NCBI GenBank assembly: GCA_017514235.1
Contig: JAFWKK010000073.1
Location: 1 to 61,615, forward strand
DNA length: 61,615 nt
Reading direction: 5' to 3'
DNA from: Kiritimatiellia bacterium
GTDB taxonomy: Bacteria > Verrucomicrobiota > Kiritimatiellia > RFP12 > UBA1067
In this document: positions 5,179 to 49,307 of the stretch, piece after piece
Numbering within the stretch: the stretch's first letter is position 1
Layout: the number at the start of each line of letters is the position of its first letter
Notes under the pieces: generated by a model
Database searches by the model: none
What the model was told of the DNA's origin: nothing
Seen by the model: only the letters and a program-made list of their open reading frames with translations
Translations under genes and position numbers: made by a program

Positions 5179-6501
5179 ATGAACATCAACAAGGTCAATC
5201 CTTCGACGCTGAAGATCACCGACATGCGCTTCGCCGACATCGACGGGGCGCCGAAGCGCTGCACGCTGATGAAGCTATTCACGAACCAGGGGCTCGTCGG
5301 CTACGGCGAAGTGCGCGACGCGTCGAGCCGCACGTACGCCGCGATGCTGAAGAGCCGCATCCTCGGCGAGAACCCGTGCAACGTGGAGAAGGTGTTCAGG
5401 CGCATCAGGCAGTTCGGCGGCGACTCTCGCCAGGCGGGCGGCGTCTGCGCGGTTGAGCTGGCGTGCTGGGACATCTGCGGCAAGGCATGGGGGCTCCCCG
5501 TGTGGCAGCTCCTCGGCGGCAGGTGGCGCGACGAGATACGCTGCTACTGCGACACGGACTCCGAAGGCGGCGGCAGGGACATGGGCGCGGCGCTCAAGGA
5601 ACGCATGAAGATGGGCTTCACGTTCCTGAAGATGGACCTCGGCATAGAGCTCCTGATGAACGTTCCGGGAGCGCTGATCGCGCCCCTGGGCTATCTCGGC
5701 TACATGAAGAAGATGAAGCACGTGGTGCAGACGCCGCACGGCTCCATCGACCCGCGCTCCATGCGTGGCGAGGCGTACGACCTCTTCAACACTGCGCACG
5801 GCTTCACCGGCATCCACATCACCGAGAAGGGGCTGGACTTCCTGGAGAAGTACATGTCCGACGTGCGCGAGGTCGTCGGCTGGGAGGTGCCGGTCGCCAT
5901 CGACCATCTCGGCCACATACCGTACGAGGACTGCGTGCAGCTGCTGAGGCGGCTTGAGAAGTACCATCTCTCGTGGGCCGAGGACGTGCTGCCCTGGCAG
6001 ATGACCGGGCAGTGGAAGCAGCTGCACGCGGCGACCGTGACGCCGCTCGGCACAGGCGAGGACATTTACCTGAAGGAGAACTTCAGGCCGCTCCTGGAAT
6101 CCGGCGCTCTTGCGGTGGTGCACCCCGACCTGCTGACGGCTGGCGGAATGATGGAGACGAAGAAGATAGGCGACAAGGCCGAGGACTTCGGCGTGCAGAT
6201 GAACATACACATGGCCGAGTCGCCGATAGCCTGCCTCGCGGCGGTGCATGTGGCGGCGGCGACCAGGAACTTCATGGCGCTGGAGCTGCATTCCGTAGAC
6301 GTGCCGTGGTGGGGCGACCTCGTGAAGCCCGCGCTCTCCTGCAAGGGCGGCTTCATCAAGGTGCCTGCGAAGCCAGGGCTCGGCATCGACGAGCTCAACG
6401 AGAGGCTCGTCCGGAAACAGTCGTGCGCAGACTTCCCGCCTCCGTGGGCGCCTACGAAGGAATGGGACGGCGAATGGTCTAATGACAGGCGGTGGTCGTG
6501 A
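5179..6501 (+). CDS. Enolase-superfamily (mandelate racemase/sugar-acid dehydratase) enzyme
   Basis: A 440-residue mandelate racemase/muconate-lactonizing family protein, by overall resemblance a sugar-acid dehydratase of the galactonate type. The N-terminal capping domain contains V-E-L-A-C-W-D-I-C-G-K-A-W-G-L-P; the barrel carries F-L-K-M-D-L (about 153-158), V-A-I-D-H-L-G-H, W-A-E-D-V-L-P-W and G-T-G-E-D-I-Y, then H-P-D-L-L-T-A-G-G. These supply the usual metal-binding acidic residues. An unusual insertion of about 40 residues (around 165-210) follows the K-x-D region. It heads a cluster with a dehydrogenase, a transporter and an oxidase pair, which points to catabolism of a hydroxy or sugar acid; the substrate cannot be read from sequence. 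Confidence 0.85.
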   Translation: MNINKVNPSTLKITDMRFADIDGAPKRCTLMKLFTNQGLVGYGEVRDASSRTYAAMLKSRILGENPCNVEKVFRRIRQFGGDSRQAGGVCAVELACWDICGKAWGLPVWQLLGGRWRDEIRCYCDTDSEGGGRDMGAALKERMKMGFTFLKMDLGIELLMNVPGALIAPLGYLGYMKKMKHVVQTPHGSIDPRSMRGEAYDLFNTAHGFTGIHITEKGLDFLEKYMSDVREVVGWEVPVAIDHLGHIPYEDCVQLLRRLEKYHLSWAEDVLPWQMTGQWKQLHAATVTPLGTGEDIYLKENFRPLLESGALAVVHPDLLTAGGMMETKKIGDKAEDFGVQMNIHMAESPIACLAAVHVAAATRNFMALELHSVDVPWWGDLVKPALSCKGGFIKVPAKPGLGIDELNERLVRKQSCADFPPPWAPTKEWDGEWSNDRRWS

Positions 6502-33072: not shown

Positions 33073-35286
33073 ATGAATGCGACGATTAACGTGCTGAGAC
33101 GAAGGCTTTCGGCTTTCGCCGCGCTCTCCTGCGCAAGTGGATACCTGACCGCATCGGCGGCAGTAAATGGCCCGGGTGTGGACATCACCGCGTTCGTCCG
33201 AAATTCCGGTGTGGGGAACTACACGGTCGAGGCTGGTAGTTCCACGGTCGTAAATCAGGGCTCCAGCGCTCCCATAGCAGCCGCATTTGACGGCAACACG
33301 GCCGCAGATGCAGATGCACGTGTCTTGATCAGGAACGGTTCAGGAGACCCGACGCCCGCCAGAATCCTGTACTCCATTGTCGATTCGGCGTTCATCGGGT
33401 ATGATTTCGAGGTGTGCTCGTTCACCCTGTACAGGGTGACGCGAGATTCTGCCCTTGAGCGCAGCCCTACGGAGTTCAAGCTGGAAGGGTGGGACGGCAG
33501 CAACTGGAAACTTCTCTTCGAGACAGATGAAACGCAGGCATGGGATTGGGACACGTATCAGCGCACCTATACGATCCCATCCGAAAACCGCGGCAGCTAC
33601 CGCAAGTACCTTTTCACGGTAACGAAGAATGGCGGCGACCCGTATTGGACTGGGCTACAGGAAATCATGTTCCACGGTAACATTACACATGGTCTTGTCT
33701 GGAACGGCTCGGATGGCGCAAGGTGGAATGCGACGGACGCGAATTGGCTAGACGGCACAGGCGTGTCCACGAACTGGATTCCCGGCGCGAAGGCCTTTTT
33801 TGGCGAACGCGGCTCGACGTCCGTCACGGTTGAAGGCACGAACGTGGTTGGTGAAATCTCCTTCTCGCCGACGAACACATGCACGATTTCTGGCGGAACG
33901 CTGGCGATGACGCTTCCCGCCGAGATTCATGCGGGCAACGGCGACATCGTCGCGTCGGAGATGACGGACGCCGCGCCAGTCGATGTTTACAAGGGCTACC
34001 TTGATGCGAACGAAACGCAACCGGAATATTTTCCTGTCGATCCGGACAACAAGAATCAGGGTTCTTGGATTTTGCTCTGGCGCAACCGGAAACTTCCGGA
34101 CATCACGGGCTTCACGGGCGCGGTGATACGCCAAGGATCGGACAATCGTCCGGCGCAGGCATACAATTTCATCAAAGACGAGGGTGGCGTGACGGCGTCC
34201 GTGCAGTTCCAGCATTTGCTTTCCTATGACCCCTATCCGATCATTTGCGTGAAATTGTTGCTTGCGCAGTGCGGTGCCGACGTGTACGGGCGTATCGCAT
34301 ACGCAAAGTATTCGTATGTTGAAGGCAGACAGCTTGGCGATGACTTCGATGCGAGCGGACCAGGCGCAACCACTGTCTCGGACTATAATGTAAGTTCATC
34401 TGGCTATGGACTTTTCGGGGTGAAGCCAGTCGGCGGCGAGCTGTCGGGCGAACCGCTTGCGGTGTCTGTCGGCGAAAGCGCCAAGTACGTTTCGCCGCTT
34501 GGCGAGAGGTATCTTCCAAAGAGCGCGACCAACTCGAAGACGGGCGACGCGGTTCTTTGTTTCCCTGGATGCAGAGTGGCGGATCTTTTCGCGATTGACA
34601 GTGCTGGCATATGCTATAACGGATCTCCGAAGTCTGCGACAGTACATTATTTCACGAACAGCGTGACGAATGCGACGGTTCAGGTACAGGGCAATACGGG
34701 AGATCCCGGAGTCGGCGCGCAGTTGTGCGTGAAAGTCGAGTTCACTGATGGTGTCGGCGGCGTGTATGCCCGCGCAGTCTATGCCAAGTACGACTGGAGC
34801 ATCAAGACGGCACATGATTTCGATGGCGTAACAAGCATTGCGGACATCTACGATGAAACATACGTAACCGGAGCAGCTTATGGCGTGAATGACCTTGTGG
34901 CGGAGTTCAAGGGGAGCCGCGTGACGTTCGGTGCGCCGACCTTGACGCTTGACCGCGAAATCACGGGCGACGGCACGGTGCGCTTTGCGCCGCTTTCCGG
35001 TTCGCAGACGGTGACTGTTCCTGCTGCGCGGACGTTAGACAAGGTCGTGTTCGGCGGTGCGACGACGTTCGCGTTCAACCAAGGCGCGTCGCTTTCCGTC
35101 GGCACTGCCGAGATTGAGGACGCCGCCGCGGTGAATGTGTCCGGGGAAAGCCTTCTGCGCATCGGCACGTCAAAGGGTCTCACGAAGGGCGAGCGTGCGC
35201 ACTTTGCGATTAACGGTGCCGGAGCCATGCAGGACGATGGTGGCTGGATAGTTCGGAAGTCTGGGATGACGGTCACAATACGATAG
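33073..35286 (+). CDS. Large secreted protein with discoidin-like N terminus and S-G-x4-R C-terminal tail
   Basis: A 737-residue extracellular protein. The signal peptide (about 1-30, ending A-S-A-A) has an N-R-R-R-like basic start. Residues about 38-205 look like a discoidin (F5/8C) module: P-T-E-F-K-L-E-G-W-D-G-S-N-W-K-L-L and R-K-Y-L-F-T-V-T-K-N-G-G. The middle contains W-N-G-S-D-G-A-R-W-N-A-T-D-A-N-W-L, resembling autotransporter-associated strand modules, and two copies of a block around 380-420 and 560-600 (L-C-V-K-V/I-C-V-K-L with Y-G-R-I-A-Y-A-K-Y). It ends K-S-G-M-T-V-T-I-R, matching two other secreted proteins here. Function is unknown; surface display or glycan binding is plausible. 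Confidence 0.7.
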   Translation: MNATINVLRRRLSAFAALSCASGYLTASAAVNGPGVDITAFVRNSGVGNYTVEAGSSTVVNQGSSAPIAAAFDGNTAADADARVLIRNGSGDPTPARILYSIVDSAFIGYDFEVCSFTLYRVTRDSALERSPTEFKLEGWDGSNWKLLFETDETQAWDWDTYQRTYTIPSENRGSYRKYLFTVTKNGGDPYWTGLQEIMFHGNITHGLVWNGSDGARWNATDANWLDGTGVSTNWIPGAKAFFGERGSTSVTVEGTNVVGEISFSPTNTCTISGGTLAMTLPAEIHAGNGDIVASEMTDAAPVDVYKGYLDANETQPEYFPVDPDNKNQGSWILLWRNRKLPDITGFTGAVIRQGSDNRPAQAYNFIKDEGGVTASVQFQHLLSYDPYPIICVKLLLAQCGADVYGRIAYAKYSYVEGRQLGDDFDASGPGATTVSDYNVSSSGYGLFGVKPVGGELSGEPLAVSVGESAKYVSPLGERYLPKSATNSKTGDAVLCFPGCRVADLFAIDSAGICYNGSPKSATVHYFTNSVTNATVQVQGNTGDPGVGAQLCVKVEFTDGVGGVYARAVYAKYDWSIKTAHDFDGVTSIADIYDETYVTGAAYGVNDLVAEFKGSRVTFGAPTLTLDREITGDGTVRFAPLSGSQTVTVPAARTLDKVVFGGATTFAFNQGASLSVGTAEIEDAAAVNVSGESLLRIGTSKGLTKGERAHFAINGAGAMQDDGGWIVRKSGMTVTIR

Positions 35287-35522: not shown

Positions 35523-37301
35523 ATGAACAAGACTGAGAAACTAATTTGCCTCGTGCTGGGCGCGGTACTGGTCTGGTACCTGTTTGTTGAGACGCCGCGT
35601 CAGGCGAAGGCGCGTCAGGAGGCGGCGCAGGTGCAGGCGCAGGAAGCGGCTTCGGCCGGGATTGCGGACGCTGCCGCCGGTGCGGAAGGCGTTGCGGTGC
35701 CGCAAAGGGCCGCAGACACGGTGGCTCCGGTGCCGGAGAAGCCGGCGGTTCCGTCCGTTCCCGAGAAGACGGTCGTTCTTGAGAACGACGAGCTGAAGCT
35801 TGAGCTGTCCTCATGGGGCGCGGTCGTAAAGAAGGCGACGCTCAAGAAGTACGCGCGGGGGCTCGGGCCGATTGGCGAGGAGAATCCGGCCGTAGAGTTC
35901 GACTTCGCCGCTTCGCCGCTCGGTGCGCTCGGCGGAATTAAGGGTCTTGCGCCGAACGCCGCTTACGACGTTAAGGAACAGTCGTCCAATTCTGTCGTGT
36001 TCGCGAACGCGACCGCCACGCGCACCGTTACGCTCTCCGCAGGGTACCGGGTCGTCTACGCCGATGAGTTCGTGGGAGATGGCGCCGCATCGCCTCTCGC
36101 GGGCGCCGGCAGTTCGATTTCGCTTGGCGTGATGACGATGGGAGGGTCGAAGAACGACCTTCTTTCCGTAGACTCGCTCGACTTGGCCAACGCTAAGGGC
36201 AAGACGGAGGTGATCCACCACTGCGAGGGCGATTCGCCCTTGAAGCCGTATCTCGTCGGCGGGCTTTCTGGTGGATGCAGCGGGTCCCAGAGCGCGGAGG
36301 GAATGCCGTCGGTTAAGGAGACCGAAGTGCGCGACGGAATGGGCTGGATCGCCGTCAAGAACCGGTTCTTCGTGACGGCGCTGTGCGCGGCGGACGCGGC
36401 GATATCGGGCTTTGACGCCGATATCGCGCGTGACATGGCGTCGGCGACCTATCGTCCCGCCTCGGTTGCGGTTCGCGCCACGTTCGGCGGCGCGGAACCG
36501 AGGCGTACGGTGACGTTCTACGTGGGGCCGAAGAAGCAGTCGCTGCTGTGGGACCTTGGCATGAGGGACGTTATGGAGTTCGGCATGTGGCGCTGGCTCT
36601 GCTATCCGCTCGTGTGGGTGCTGAACCTCTTCAACGACTGGATTCCTAACTACGGCGTGGCGATAATACTGCTCACGATCCTCGTGCGTCTCCTCTTCTG
36701 GCCGCTTACGCACAAGTCGACTGTCGGCATGAAGAAGATGCAGGAGCTTCAGCCGAAGATGAAGGAGATACAGGCGAAGTTCAAGGACAATCCGCAGCGG
36801 CTGCAGCAGGAGACGTGGGCGCTGTACCGCGAGGCCAAGGTGAACCCGATGAGCTCTTGCCTGCCGATGCTCATACAGATTCCGGTGTTCATCGCCCTCT
36901 TCAACGTGCTTCGTTCGGCGGTGGAGCTTCGCTATGCGCCGTTCCTGTGGATAGCCGACCTGTCCGAGCCGGAAGGGCTGTTCGCGAGCTGGTTCCCGTT
37001 CGGCGGCCTCAACATCCTGCCGATCCTCATGGCCGCCACGACAGCGTTGCAGAGCGCGTTCACGCCGTCTGCCGGGGACAAGAGCCAGCAGAAGATGATG
37101 ATGGTGTTCATGCCGATCATGATGCTCGTGATGTTCTACTCGTTCCCGTCGGCGCTTTCGCTATACTGGTTCCTTTCCAACATCTTCTCCATCGTGCAGA
37201 TGTGGATAATCCGCCGCCAGACTGCGGCTGCGCAGGGCGGCGCGCTCGTGCCCGAGGTCATCGATCCGCCGGTCACGCGGCAAATGCGCAGGCACCAATA
37301 G
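35523..37301 (+). CDS. yidC: Membrane protein insertase YidC
   Basis: A 592-residue YidC/Oxa1 insertase. One membrane segment at about 6-22, an Ala/Glu/Gln/Pro-rich linker to about 85, a periplasmic beta domain to about 345, then the conserved membrane core: P-N-Y-G-V-A-I-I-L-L-T-I-L-V-R-L with the hydrophilic-groove Arg, P-K-M-K-E-I-Q-A-K-F-K-D-N-P-Q-R-L-Q in the cytoplasmic loop, C-L-P-M-L-I-Q-I-P-V-F-I-A-L and S-F-P-S-A-L-S-L-Y-W. The G-N-G-like P1 domain is present, as in Gram-negative types. Normally part of rnpA-yidC clusters, but here it is between a secreted-protein gene and purC. Confidence 0.95.
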   Translation: MNKTEKLICLVLGAVLVWYLFVETPRQAKARQEAAQVQAQEAASAGIADAAAGAEGVAVPQRAADTVAPVPEKPAVPSVPEKTVVLENDELKLELSSWGAVVKKATLKKYARGLGPIGEENPAVEFDFAASPLGALGGIKGLAPNAAYDVKEQSSNSVVFANATATRTVTLSAGYRVVYADEFVGDGAASPLAGAGSSISLGVMTMGGSKNDLLSVDSLDLANAKGKTEVIHHCEGDSPLKPYLVGGLSGGCSGSQSAEGMPSVKETEVRDGMGWIAVKNRFFVTALCAADAAISGFDADIARDMASATYRPASVAVRATFGGAEPRRTVTFYVGPKKQSLLWDLGMRDVMEFGMWRWLCYPLVWVLNLFNDWIPNYGVAIILLTILVRLLFWPLTHKSTVGMKKMQELQPKMKEIQAKFKDNPQRLQQETWALYREAKVNPMSSCLPMLIQIPVFIALFNVLRSAVELRYAPFLWIADLSEPEGLFASWFPFGGLNILPILMAATTALQSAFTPSAGDKSQQKMMMVFMPIMMLVMFYSFPSALSLYWFLSNIFSIVQMWIIRRQTAAAQGGALVPEVIDPPVTRQMRRHQ

Positions 37302-45300: not shown

Positions 45301-45990
45301 CATGTGAAAGGCGGCTCGTCTCTCACCATGCTGAACGGGGCATACCTCTATACCCGTTGGGAGTTCTGCGTCGAGGGAGACAACGCCTCGCTTTTCGTCG
45401 GCGACGGATGCGAGCTCAATCAGGTAGGCGTGGACGGCGACCGATTCCTGTTTGCGGGGCAGAACGCGTCGATGGTCATTTCCAACGGCGTCGTCAAGGC
45501 GAATACCCTGCGCATCGGCGGCAGTGGTGATTCTGACACCTCCTACGTGGGCAAGACCCCCGCCGGTGTTTCGTTCCTCGGCGATCACCCGCAGCTGCAG
45601 ATATTGCAGTATGCCAAGGTCCATGCCAACATGGGCGGTGCGCTGCCGATCGTGTTCTCGATTCCCGCCGCCGGATATGAGGCGACGCCGATTGTGAAGA
45701 CGGGCGCGACAAGCCGGTCGTTCGCAGAGCTGAACGGGGAGATTCCCGGCCTGTCGTTCGGCATTGACCGGAAGTCGCCATTCTTCGCGCAGCGCGATAC
45801 CGATACTCTCGTGCAGCGGCTTGTCGACTGGACGCATGGCGGCTCTAACTATGCAATCAATGCCGCCGGAGTCTCGTTCCGCAATACTGGACGCGCAGCG
45901 TTTTCGTATCTGCCGAAAGATTCCGCCACCAAGAGCTTTGTCGAGGTCAGTTTAGTCTGCTCTTCGGGACTGTCAATCATCTTCAGATGA
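42301..45990 (+). CDS. Giant secreted protein with repeated DUF2341 and LamG-like domains
   Basis: About 1229 residues. Signal peptide about 1-21. Residues about 25-105 and about 395-480 are two copies of a DUF2341 domain (S-Y-A-D-F-N-E-S / S-Y-D-D-F-V-Q-S with W-N-T-[SA]-G-E-S-[VL]-V-W-V-K). Each is followed by a LamG/concanavalin-like module: about 140-370 (F-T-F-S-G-W-F) and about 505-760. The rest is beta-rich with W-K-S-G-T-T-G-L-W-S-D-S-A-N-W, like autotransporter-associated passengers. The last residues S-S-G-L-S-I-I-F-R match two other proteins here. ATG 42301 is preferred over ATG 42295 because AAAGGAG ends right before the latter. Overlaps the CotH gene by ATGA. Confidence 0.8.
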   Translation: MRSKVSFVVFTLVPALFAFAALPVDYAKKLTMTVSPAAVGYDAADVANVPVAVRLSTAIQGFSYADFNESGGGDLLFTDENGNALAHEIESWNTSGESVVWVKMPTFGSGRKLYAYYGGEAVAQNAAGVWSQYGGVWHMSEASGYVADATGNGHDAVPGGESAAQSVATTGAIGSGRVNATSGTAYLAATSTAQIGYGDTFTFSGWFLAYSADTDGEATLVTNKERRWNDSGWGIRLLKGTDTTKLIYRGRGDAGDGTLVVLDVPDLKDGWVHVSVVYGPGDTGTMYINGKYAIPYRKDHYDIGTLTSTSWLRAPSDNGYPLTFGFNANNVWDDGWSRCFHGAFDEFRISDGTKTAAQVAAEYAAQTPGALTYSVGANDASYATVTLANFTKKFTVAASGYDGSETFADFPMLVRLSTAISGFSYDDFVQSDYADLAFFDVSGNPLAFDVDTWNTAGESLVWVKVPSFASGTTVTVAYGGLVRNDVHQAATWSAYRGVWHMNETGDGTQTIADATANAMAGTSHSATAYVPAGQLGGSRRMATSRGASDQNGGVRIPFNPAMNNDAGGSFSMVASTWVNLDTGGNWGGALLMRKNGMDDGGWGFGYHYTEMNHFDYYFRASYDGIYTPHSSGGGGYTQYNATESIWKTAGAANEWHRYTVIYSWNGSYIVCSQYLDGEKGSDCWLYNYTDDGDGNSTGERSYAPLCQPTDKGLALGSFIGSGNYPLLGAMDEVRLRFGATSPTREALEYGQESNAACYSYSTVSDIDGSTVPGIVVFGEAADATVVNDTANGKVVFTIPVVVSSLRGGSATLKLMIGVAEPKDGDPALRMTQVDALPISAAGSYSFTWNGATLGTKVAYKVVSDAAIDATHIWTSETALKETTLSDSATYRWKSGTTGLWSDSANWTTSASDGLPRVGYPTSGSRFDVYGDSQTSVILVDANYEGLQGGSTLGWGNDDITFKGVVEGAAIGYPVGSGFKDGQYTNVKITLDGVSLTCGSYHVKGGSSLTMLNGAYLYTRWEFCVEGDNASLFVGDGCELNQVGVDGDRFLFAGQNASMVISNGVVKANTLRIGGSGDSDTSYVGKTPAGVSFLGDHPQLQILQYAKVHANMGGALPIVFSIPAAGYEATPIVKTGATSRSFAELNGEIPGLSFGIDRKSPFFAQRDTDTLVQRLVDWTHGGSNYAINAAGVSFRNTGRAAFSYLPKDSATKSFVEVSLVCSSGLSIIFR

Positions 45991-48900: not shown

Positions 48901-49307
48901 CATGGCTTGATACGCAGTTTGCCGATCTTGATACGTTTGTGGAGAACGTCCGCAATGACGCAAGTGCCTCGCCGTTCGTGAGGACTCCTGGCGCGCTGTC
49001 GGCAAACGGCTCTGCCGACCGCGAATTGACCGTATCCCGTGCGCGGCCATCAGATTTCAACGTTGCAGTGGGCGATACGGGAGCAACGGCCGTCGATGTC
49101 ATTTTGAACGGGCGGCTGTCGGGTCGCGGCCTGGCTGTCACGAACGGGATGTGCGCGTTTCGGGCAAAGGCGTTCGACTCGAAGGCGGCGCCAGGAACCC
49201 GCGCTCTTGTCGCAGTGCTCGGCCGCCGTGCCGACGGTGAGATCGTCCTGCGCGACTACATGACGCTTCGCGCCGATGCGTCGGGTCTTGGAATTATGCT
49301 GAGATGA
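45987..49307 (+). CDS. Secreted CotH-kinase-domain protein with duplicated N-terminal module
   Basis: A 1106-residue exported protein. Signal peptide about 1-22. Two tandem modules (about 24-245 and 257-490) share V-x-F-D-x-x-G-G, x-G-x-x-x-N-L-Y-P, R-W-C-N-Y-W and T-Y-V-I-D-V, each ending in a Listeria-Bacteroides-like beta repeat (T-L-T-A-x-W). The CotH kinase domain spans about 590-1010: F-V-K-G-R-G-N-S-T-W, G-L-Y-Q-F-C-E-H-V-R and F-G-P-V-W-D-C-D-W-G-L-G with the Mg-binding D-x-D. CotH domains phosphorylate proteins on spores, and secreted versions may act on cell-surface or cellulosome-like proteins. It ends A-S-G-L-G-I-M-L-R. Confidence 0.85.
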   Translation: MMSRSAIASVAIAVAASAGGGLVVVSFDPAGGTLDDNVRVVSEGGTYGENANLYPSGSPANFSDLPSNKITLADGVFAYSTSDRWCNYWSRPIANIVAGRPYTYVIDVLSYANESSAGPWFNIGHTGNDQPAQLSWASAQVTGAGRHVRNLTGRTVESYTTLGRDYVDFNHSDGGVCSMTFRVQLYAGKDAVPADGAYAASGECVAMPLPVPARPGFTFAGWRNAAGEAVTSATVVPAGERHTLTAAWRRNPGTVVPVKVTFDANGGQVKEKFRIVNTEQPFGRTVNLYPGTARDKFMDFNATYLALQDNVFTYNADGRWCNYWARATKSVEPGETYTYVIDVASFAKTDANPWFNLGQTGDWQAQLSRAAVEISAPGVYAVALTARDAAEGPFDLLGRDYIELPGGSCQMTFRIALFPGTSVNAANYSYAAPGEGMSLALPVATKSGRAFDCWVDAAGNRITDETVADVDGDVTLTAQWKPWTITVENADRPQVGKTLTASTDYGDGSREGESGVVSYKWFRGDWKGDYEAAAISTAASYTPVAGDLEHFLKAVVYVDGSEILSSALWLSKLPVVYIDTSDGADIIVKSDEKTSNVRVQGNAEFKQQYDGLAFVKGRGNSTWGLPKKPYKVKLDSKTDMFGFGKQKHCVLLANYIDASSMRNKTAYDMSGAFGLVHQDSTWVEVVFNGRFDGLYQFCEHVRVDKTRVNIHNWEDDVENEEDLSSIDPAAADISGGYLWELSAEYDEISKFKIDVTGDGETNDDIPVMFNRPEFAYTNPAMMEWCSNFWQEVYFAWTSPLNQSADGSRSWEELCDIGSMVSYWLVNEIFGNDDAWYKSRYCYKDIGGKLTFGPVWDCDWGLGSVATGTNNVSRWRLARENNSGWPVSFYKEWLDDPWFCLKALEKYWAMRPKFDSLLADGSGYDTSVAYLHEAGLAEDARWGAARESSYGVDARTQAGDAATFKWWMKTRLAWLDTQFADLDTFVENVRNDASASPFVRTPGALSANGSADRELTVSRARPSDFNVAVGDTGATAVDVILNGRLSGRGLAVTNGMCAFRAKAFDSKAAPGTRALVAVLGRRADGEIVLRDYMTLRADASGLGIMLR

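Follow-up and report, generated by a model that had tools for sequence, protein, structure and literature searches.

Three exported proteins encoded in a 61,615-nucleotide stretch of a Kiritimatiellia bacterium genome (contig JAFWKK010000073.1; hereafter the window) end in closely similar octapeptides, which raises the question of whether so short a C-terminus is a signal in its own right and, if so, what might read it. That a seven-residue C-terminal tag of exported proteins is real, and larger than the three window cases, is well supported: it has a defined position and pattern, is restricted to exported proteins, is independent of the fold of its passenger, has spread through a bacterial family and varies in flavour with the species. 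Judging from sequence, we lean towards a C-terminal sorting or export tag, predicted to be read as an edge β-strand by outer-membrane machinery, in a family of gut Kiritimatiellae.

All three proteins are encoded on the + strand. P0001 (33073..35286; 737 aa) is an open reading frame (ORF) that starts with a signal-peptide-like segment (33073..33162; a crude prediction with an approximate end) and closes with S-GMTVTIR and the stop codon (35260..35286), the constrained part being the last seven codons (35263-35283). P0002 (42295..45990; 1231 aa) and P0003 (45987..49307; 1106 aa) close, respectively, with S-GLSIIFR plus stop (45964..45990) and S-GLGIMLR plus stop (49281..49307). The preliminary description of this stretch had reported the endings KSGMTVTIR, SSGLSIIFR and ASGLGIMLR behind signal peptides and without a common domain architecture. 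The endings were found exactly so, a signal-peptide-like start was recognized in 3 of 3 by a crude home-made predictor, and the Pfam domains were none in P0001, DUF2341 in P0002 and a CotH kinase domain plus InlB-type repeats in P0003. The stop of P0002 and the start of P0003 overlap in an ATGA (45987-45990), so the two genes probably form one transcription unit. Homologues of both are encoded in another stretch (L125), at 41% identity across residues 390-1231 for P0002 (tail GFAVFVR) and at 64% in the best segment for P0003 (tail GFGVRIR), and a goat-jejunum Kiritimatiellae genome (JAFRJH010000237.1) keeps the P0002-P0003 pair together with these two tails. Homologues of P0003 conserve the classes of residues in the tail rather than the letters (SGLGIMLR versus PGFGVRIR and PGFGVLLR).

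The tag was then counted across the whole source genome (3.96 Mb; G000). The wider pattern GGNNTNNNNNTNNNNNTNMGNTRR, that is, the heptapeptide G-hydrophobic-x-hydrophobic-x-hydrophobic-R followed by a stop, was found at 64 places, against 35 for the reversed pattern that served as the DNA control throughout; the pattern also admits TGG and AGY (Ser) codons, and 6 of the 64 places proved to be TGG, leaving 58 with a true stop. An ORF with a signal peptide ends at 34 of these 58 (33 distinct ORFs, as one is doubled at the overlap of two contig ends), and an ORF with an internal signal peptide or a membrane anchor at six; ten are frames of under 60 aa and eight fall outside these classes, with both the signal-peptide predictor and the gene caller being home-made and crude. 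The eight consist of a protein with an obvious signal peptide that the predictor overlooked (L089), a 74-residue protein with a hydrophobic N-terminus (L058/L082), an end in Ser (L050), an antisense match at position 6066 of the window and four apparent C-terminal fragments or incomplete frames (L092, L105, L109 and L111). Judged by eye, no convincing cytoplasmic carrier is present among the 58 true-stop places of this genome-wide list, and about 40 exported proteins of the source genome are closed by the tag. The motif is, furthermore, rare inside proteins: 14 occurrences in 179,488 ORF residues correspond to 0.034 expected among 434 C-termini, where 39 were observed, the match list being genome-wide and the stretches used for the internal rate being mostly centred on matches (46 of 58 sampled stretches were picked around pattern matches and 12 as background). 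The proposed enrichment on secreted over cytoplasmic proteins is thus strong, and the predicted sorting, export or maturation signal passes these counting tests, both in its enrichment on exported proteins and in its concentration in one family (see below).

The consensus of the tag is G-[M/L/F/I/V, less often T/A]-x-[I/V/L]-x-[I/F/V/L]-R-stop. Over 46 tails of the source genome, 2.3 to 4.3 bits of information were found at positions -7 (G), -6 (M, L, V, F), -4 (I, L), -2 (I, V, F) and -1 (44 tails with R and 2 with K, in a set selected for an R or K end), values that are partly circular as these positions were preset by the search pattern. Features that the pattern did not set are the drop of information before -7, the free position -5 and the lineage dependence of -3. 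From -8 to -14 the information is about 1.0 bit or less in the source genome (0.55 bits at -8), and upstream positions reach 1.7 bits in the relative G378 (n = 20) and 1.3 bits in a mixed set (n = 50) that takes in L021, L146, two window rows (L186) and one G378 row (L175). Of the Ser, Gly and Arg once described as invariant, Gly at -7 and Arg at -1 are therefore high-information positions, and Ser at -8 is not conserved. The literal octapeptide does not survive as the signal unit: its DNA pattern ([S/T..]G[LM..]x[IV]x[ILF]R-stop) matched five places in the genome (one a TGG rather than a stop) against one for the reversed pattern, and its rarity outside the window together with the variable Ser ruled it out.

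Looser ends occur on other large exported proteins, such as GAVIVIF, GAIIIVQ, GMTITIH, GLIISVK, GAVIIVR and GTVIYIR, with F, Q or H among the last residues. Likewise in G190, which is tail-poor by the stricter pattern, inspection of 28 exported ORFs with at least 350 aa showed looser tails on four, judged by eye (GTMMWVR, GSLISVR, GTLLRIY and GTRILLQ). The strict tail counts are therefore lower bounds. The lineage dependence at -3 takes the form of a preference for N in one genus, N standing there in 20 of 27 pattern matches of G378 versus 0 of 48 tails of G000 (paralogues among them not being independent); such a preference is as expected if the tag and its receptor co-evolve.

The constraint acts on the protein, since 40 of 40 tails have distinct DNA 24-mers and the third-position identity is 0.34; moreover, all six Arg codons are used. 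This bears out the earlier view that the tails are no DNA repeat. A 3′ element was rejected along with the repeat, as the sequences downstream (up to 150 bases past the stop) yielded merely three pairs of 15-23 bases at E 0.01.

The carriers are diverse. Their length runs from 74 to 1,523 residues in the source genome and up to 2,549 in a relative. By the 151 residues that precede the last nine, 48 tail proteins fall into 33 similarity groups (21 by the whole protein; blastp, E 1e-3). Pfam results for 40 of the 42 strict carriers showed Laminin_G_3 in seven, PA14 in two, F5/8C in two and CotH, a β-helix and PATR in one each, with DUF2341 and InlB-type repeats also among the domains; tiny proteins carry the tag too. 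No β-barrel family was among the 21 Pfam families that these 40 matched. CotH homologues across the family end either with the tag or with an unrelated sequence of the ..RFFKVKVSLP type; the tag thus appears to behave as an exchangeable module. The tail-less ones come from several genera (L191-L196 and L206-L210) and end in ..RFFKVKVSLP or close variants, perhaps a second C-terminal signature.

In one carrier (L097) the choice-of-anchor Q domain NF041518 occupies residues 596-642 of 653 (25.9 bits; cut-off 25) and the tag starts at 647, four residues past the domain. NCBI uses the name choice-of-anchor for domains found immediately ahead of C-terminal sorting signals of different kinds, so that the model of an independent curator points to this position in L097 as an anchor site. 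L097 is the only one of 40 C-terminal segments with a choice-of-anchor domain over the cut-off; two of 40 matched at E up to 1, and 38 were without one.

Such diversity bears on whether the tail is no more than the final strand or hairpin of a passenger-type fold that the carriers have in common, as had been suggested alongside the sorting signal. Many carriers are beta-rich, and six paralogous tail proteins (L074, L076, L085, L088, L102 and L111) indeed end in a GYL/GWL-loop-tail arrangement. However, the 33 C-terminal groups have no detectable similarity to each other, the information falls from 2.3-4.3 bits within the tag to the low values upstream of it, even in G378, the L097 tag lies beyond its domain and CotH homologues without a tail exist. 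A shared last hairpin is therefore disfavoured, and we regard it as very improbable.

The family and class counts were made with an intermediate pattern, with per-genome figures transcribed by hand. In the whole family (gut Kiritimatiellae; 115 genomes including the source) there were 827 matches versus 207 for the control, made up of 298 versus 80 in the own genus (62 genomes, source included) and 529 versus 127 in the other genera (53 genomes), whereas the remainder of the class was near background (504 versus 475 in 149 genomes). Matches exceeded the control by five or more in 45 of the 115 family genomes, versus 12 of the 149 genomes from the rest of the class (G108 among them through a repeat). 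A tighter pattern, with matches counted by eye over 288 genomes of the phylum, gave 21 matches versus 0 for the control in 14 family genomes. The 20 tails read in G378 come from 19 stretches and terminate ORFs of 678 to 2,121 residues, of which 18 have a signal peptide, one is cut by its stretch and one has no recognized start. The tag was thus rightly called peculiar to a lineage insofar as one family has it commonly and the remainder of the class stays near background, but it is not absolutely confined to that family. Carriers seen outside it are L021 (G072, same order), L134 (202 aa; G085, same order), L146 (G261, same class) and the orthologues L136-L139 described below; in one set of 11 outside stretches, five hold a carrier of this kind and six do not. 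These carriers may reflect chance or a wider, thinner spread.

Two observations from outside the family stand apart. One protein of about 1,000 aa, apparently homologous throughout and ending in ..LPENGMAIIIR (in one case LPESGMAIIIR), is encoded in four stretches (L136-L139) that come from three genomes of a different family of the phylum, far from the family of the tag. In G108, of the same class, GGTGTACCCGTCCGCTTTCGGTGG occurs in many copies, several of them near contig ends, and is probably a repeated mobile element; its repetition inflates the pattern count of that genome.

Like PEP-CTERM (and MYXO-CTERM and GlyGly-CTERM), the tag is transferable, occurs in dozens per genome on diverse carriers with an N-terminal signal peptide, and has a basic end; unlike them, it has seven residues only, no transmembrane helix and no PEP or GG motif. 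No PEP-CTERM model was among the 16 NCBIfam and 18 Pfam families that were matched by the last 150 residues of 40 tail proteins. An exosortase was found in 23 of 23 family genomes examined, with one match in 19 of them and two or three in G386, G378, G403 and G406, all of which are tail-rich; a single exosortase is present in 10 of 14 tail-rich and 9 of 9 tail-poor genomes. A classical PEP-CTERM set coexists with the tag: at E up to 1, each genome has between 1 and 10 matches (on average 5.4 for the 14 tail-rich genomes and 4.4 for the nine tail-poor ones), although at this threshold the model also matched 7 of 14 control genomes, two of them over the cut-off. As both are present in tail-rich and tail-poor genomes alike, the tag and the PEP-CTERM/exosortase system are not clearly linked, and their being one and the same system is disfavoured. 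No tail protein was among the ORFs listed in one exosortase neighbourhood (L248; 20 kb). A variant PEP-CTERM-like signal served by the exosortase of these genomes would fit the basic end and the extra exosortase matches of four tail-rich genomes, yet the described signal consists of a PEP motif, a transmembrane helix and a basic cluster (available part of PMC1569441), and the tag has no such motif and is too short for the helix. This is the least probable of the explanations considered here.

The same 40 segments matched no C-terminal domain model of the type IX secretion system (T9SS), for which we take the Ig-like models to be TIGR04183, TIGR04131 and PF18962. SprA (TIGR04189) was found in 0 of 23 family genomes, but this model matched no control genome either. 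T9SS itself was rejected on the missing domain, with the SprA result read in the light of its empty control. Cargo of T9SS, in the available part of PMC11285876, carries a folded Ig-like C-terminal domain in which the extreme C-terminal strand is needed, has a basic end such as KLIKK and is species-specific. The tag resembles it in its extreme C-terminal strand, the basic residue near the end, the diverse surface carriers and the species specificity, and differs in that no Ig-like domain model is matched. A dedicated new or T9SS-like outer-membrane secretion machine might accordingly remove or modify the tail as a processing signal, with no part for the β-barrel assembly machinery (BAM); the flavour at -3 and the dozens of substrates in the source genome would suit it as well, while the empty domain search speaks against it. 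We hold this to be unlikely, though it deserves weight.

The tag itself matches no Pfam or NCBIfam model. Among the papers listed on secretion and sorting in Kiritimatiellae and Kiritimatiellota and on short C-terminal sorting signals, outside subscription papers and preprints, no title or abstract opening describes it, in keeping with the initial statement that none like it was known.

The closest likeness is to the BAM β-signal, a C-terminal polar-x-G-x-x-[aromatic/hydrophobic]-x-[aromatic/hydrophobic] motif (available part of PMC10945584), and BamA is itself species-specific (available part of PMC3869937). Both motifs have a G followed by hydrophobic residues at +3 and +5, stand at the extreme C-terminus of exported proteins and come in lineage-specific flavours; the G-x-x-hydrophobic-x-hydrophobic spacing was fixed by the design of the search, unlike its excess over the control and over the internal rate. 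The tag differs from the β-signal in that its carriers have no barrel family and in that a single Arg past the last hydrophobic residue replaces the terminal aromatic one. Barrel proteins seen in these genomes end without Arg: none of 23 printed Omp85 frames has Arg at its end, DF or EF closing 19 of them (mostly as ..GYDF), QF one and IGFE another, with two in the wrong frame, and a 313-aa protein, porin-like by its end, closes with ..GLALTLNF. Because the spacing equals that of the β-signal and is then followed by Arg, while the barrels end without it, the tag may be a barrel β-signal detached from any barrel, plus one C-terminal Arg.

On the export reading that we prefer, a carrier would cross the inner membrane by means of its N-terminal signal peptide or membrane anchor, as far as sequence features indicate. 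The tag would then form a short exposed β-strand that is bound by β-augmentation at the outer membrane, its reader most likely being the BAM complex, or else a barrel or receptor that binds strands likewise, and the outcome would be surface export or anchoring of proteins that mostly have no lipoprotein signal (a loose lipobox was found in 3 of 36 tail proteins versus 17 of 104 tail-less exported proteins with at least 250 aa). Unlike the tag itself, the strand, its receptor and the outcome are what we infer here.

Several observations weigh against this reading. Spread within the family is uneven, with at most one match in 24 of 62 genomes of the genus and in 8 of 53 other family genomes (many of them incomplete), and no tail was found on the 11 exported ORFs of 350 aa or more that were read in G017. 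Outside the family the tighter pattern still gave 40 matches in 274 genomes versus nine for the control (16 of the 40 being TGG), and a few long carriers occur there. Only 21 of 48 tails have a polar residue at -9, which corresponds to the polar position of the β-signal, Arg stands where real barrel signals have their C-terminal aromatic residue and, the pattern being degenerate, the likeness to the β-signal could be coincidence. A search for the receptor found none, Omp85 (PF01103) being present in all 23 family genomes examined whether rich or poor in tails, and an AlphaFold model of the last 130 residues of P0003 was poor (mean predicted local distance difference test score of 50) with the tail as coil, a result that says little. 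As to a second Omp85 as a mark of tail-rich genomes, there is one match per genome except in G014, where a second was found (26.3 bits; cut-off 24), so this candidate was dropped. Thus, the suggested co-occurrence with one protease or outer-membrane factor was not borne out: none was found to track the tag, Omp85 and exosortase being present in all 23 genomes and the neighbours of tail genes having been viewed without a systematic protease or sortase search.

An amphipathic strand with a fixed end could also serve assembly rather than export, the tail being a donor strand that is added to an incomplete sheet in the next protein or in a shared scaffold, much as happens in fibres or surface layers. 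Many carriers are large with adhesion-type domains, and some are encoded close together (P0002/P0003, for example, or three in L154). However, no acceptor domain is common to the carriers, and carriers of about 100 residues (L086, L091 and L095) match no family of the large ones, which leaves self-assembly improbable.

A bolder form of the export reading, which we put forward tentatively and consider rather less likely than not to hold in full, is that a bare seven-residue β-signal routes or anchors non-barrel proteins of any fold at the outer membrane, so that BAM or a dedicated barrel would act as a general surface-display machine throughout the family, with tag and receptor co-evolving. To our knowledge, the C-terminal sorting tags of diderm bacteria consist either of a folded domain or of a transmembrane helix that works with a sortase-like enzyme. 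If the proposal is true, the tag would be the smallest such signal, used in uncultured gut bacteria by tens of exported proteins, many of which carry glycan-binding-type domains; it would show what these organisms put on display and point to a new receptor. If the receptor is BAM, what BAM handles beyond barrels would become testable with a peptide.

Some further observations concern the carriers and their surroundings. Directly 3′ of P0001 lies a YidC gene (60KD_IMP; window 35523-37301), followed by one for SAICAR synthetase. Relatives of P0003 in phages were limited to 25 phage records, all at <60% identity (29%, over the CotH part, in the five records listed), and none was confirmed in viral contigs of IMG/VR.

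Four tail proteins of the source genome have a cytoplasmic-type N-terminus within one open frame (L087:3211-7071, +; L102:4532-7063, +; L106:1525-2958, -; L076:4081-7026, +), consisting of extracytoplasmic function (ECF) sigma regions in L087 and zf-HC2 in L102 and L106, with no Pfam match in L076. In each frame a hydrophobic segment is followed by a linker with PYVAS or a close variant and then by a second signal-peptide-like stretch, the ATG of which is preceded by purine-rich, Shine-Dalgarno-like bases (clearest in L102). In L102 and L106 the gene immediately upstream encodes an ECF sigma factor. These frames may represent sigma/anti-sigma units that are fused to surface proteins or coupled with them in translation. 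In addition, five tail genes of the source genome (L086, L091, L095, L106 and L107) lie near genes with an FGE-sulfatase (SUMF1-like) domain, a recurring pairing in which four of the five encode small proteins of 87-228 aa.

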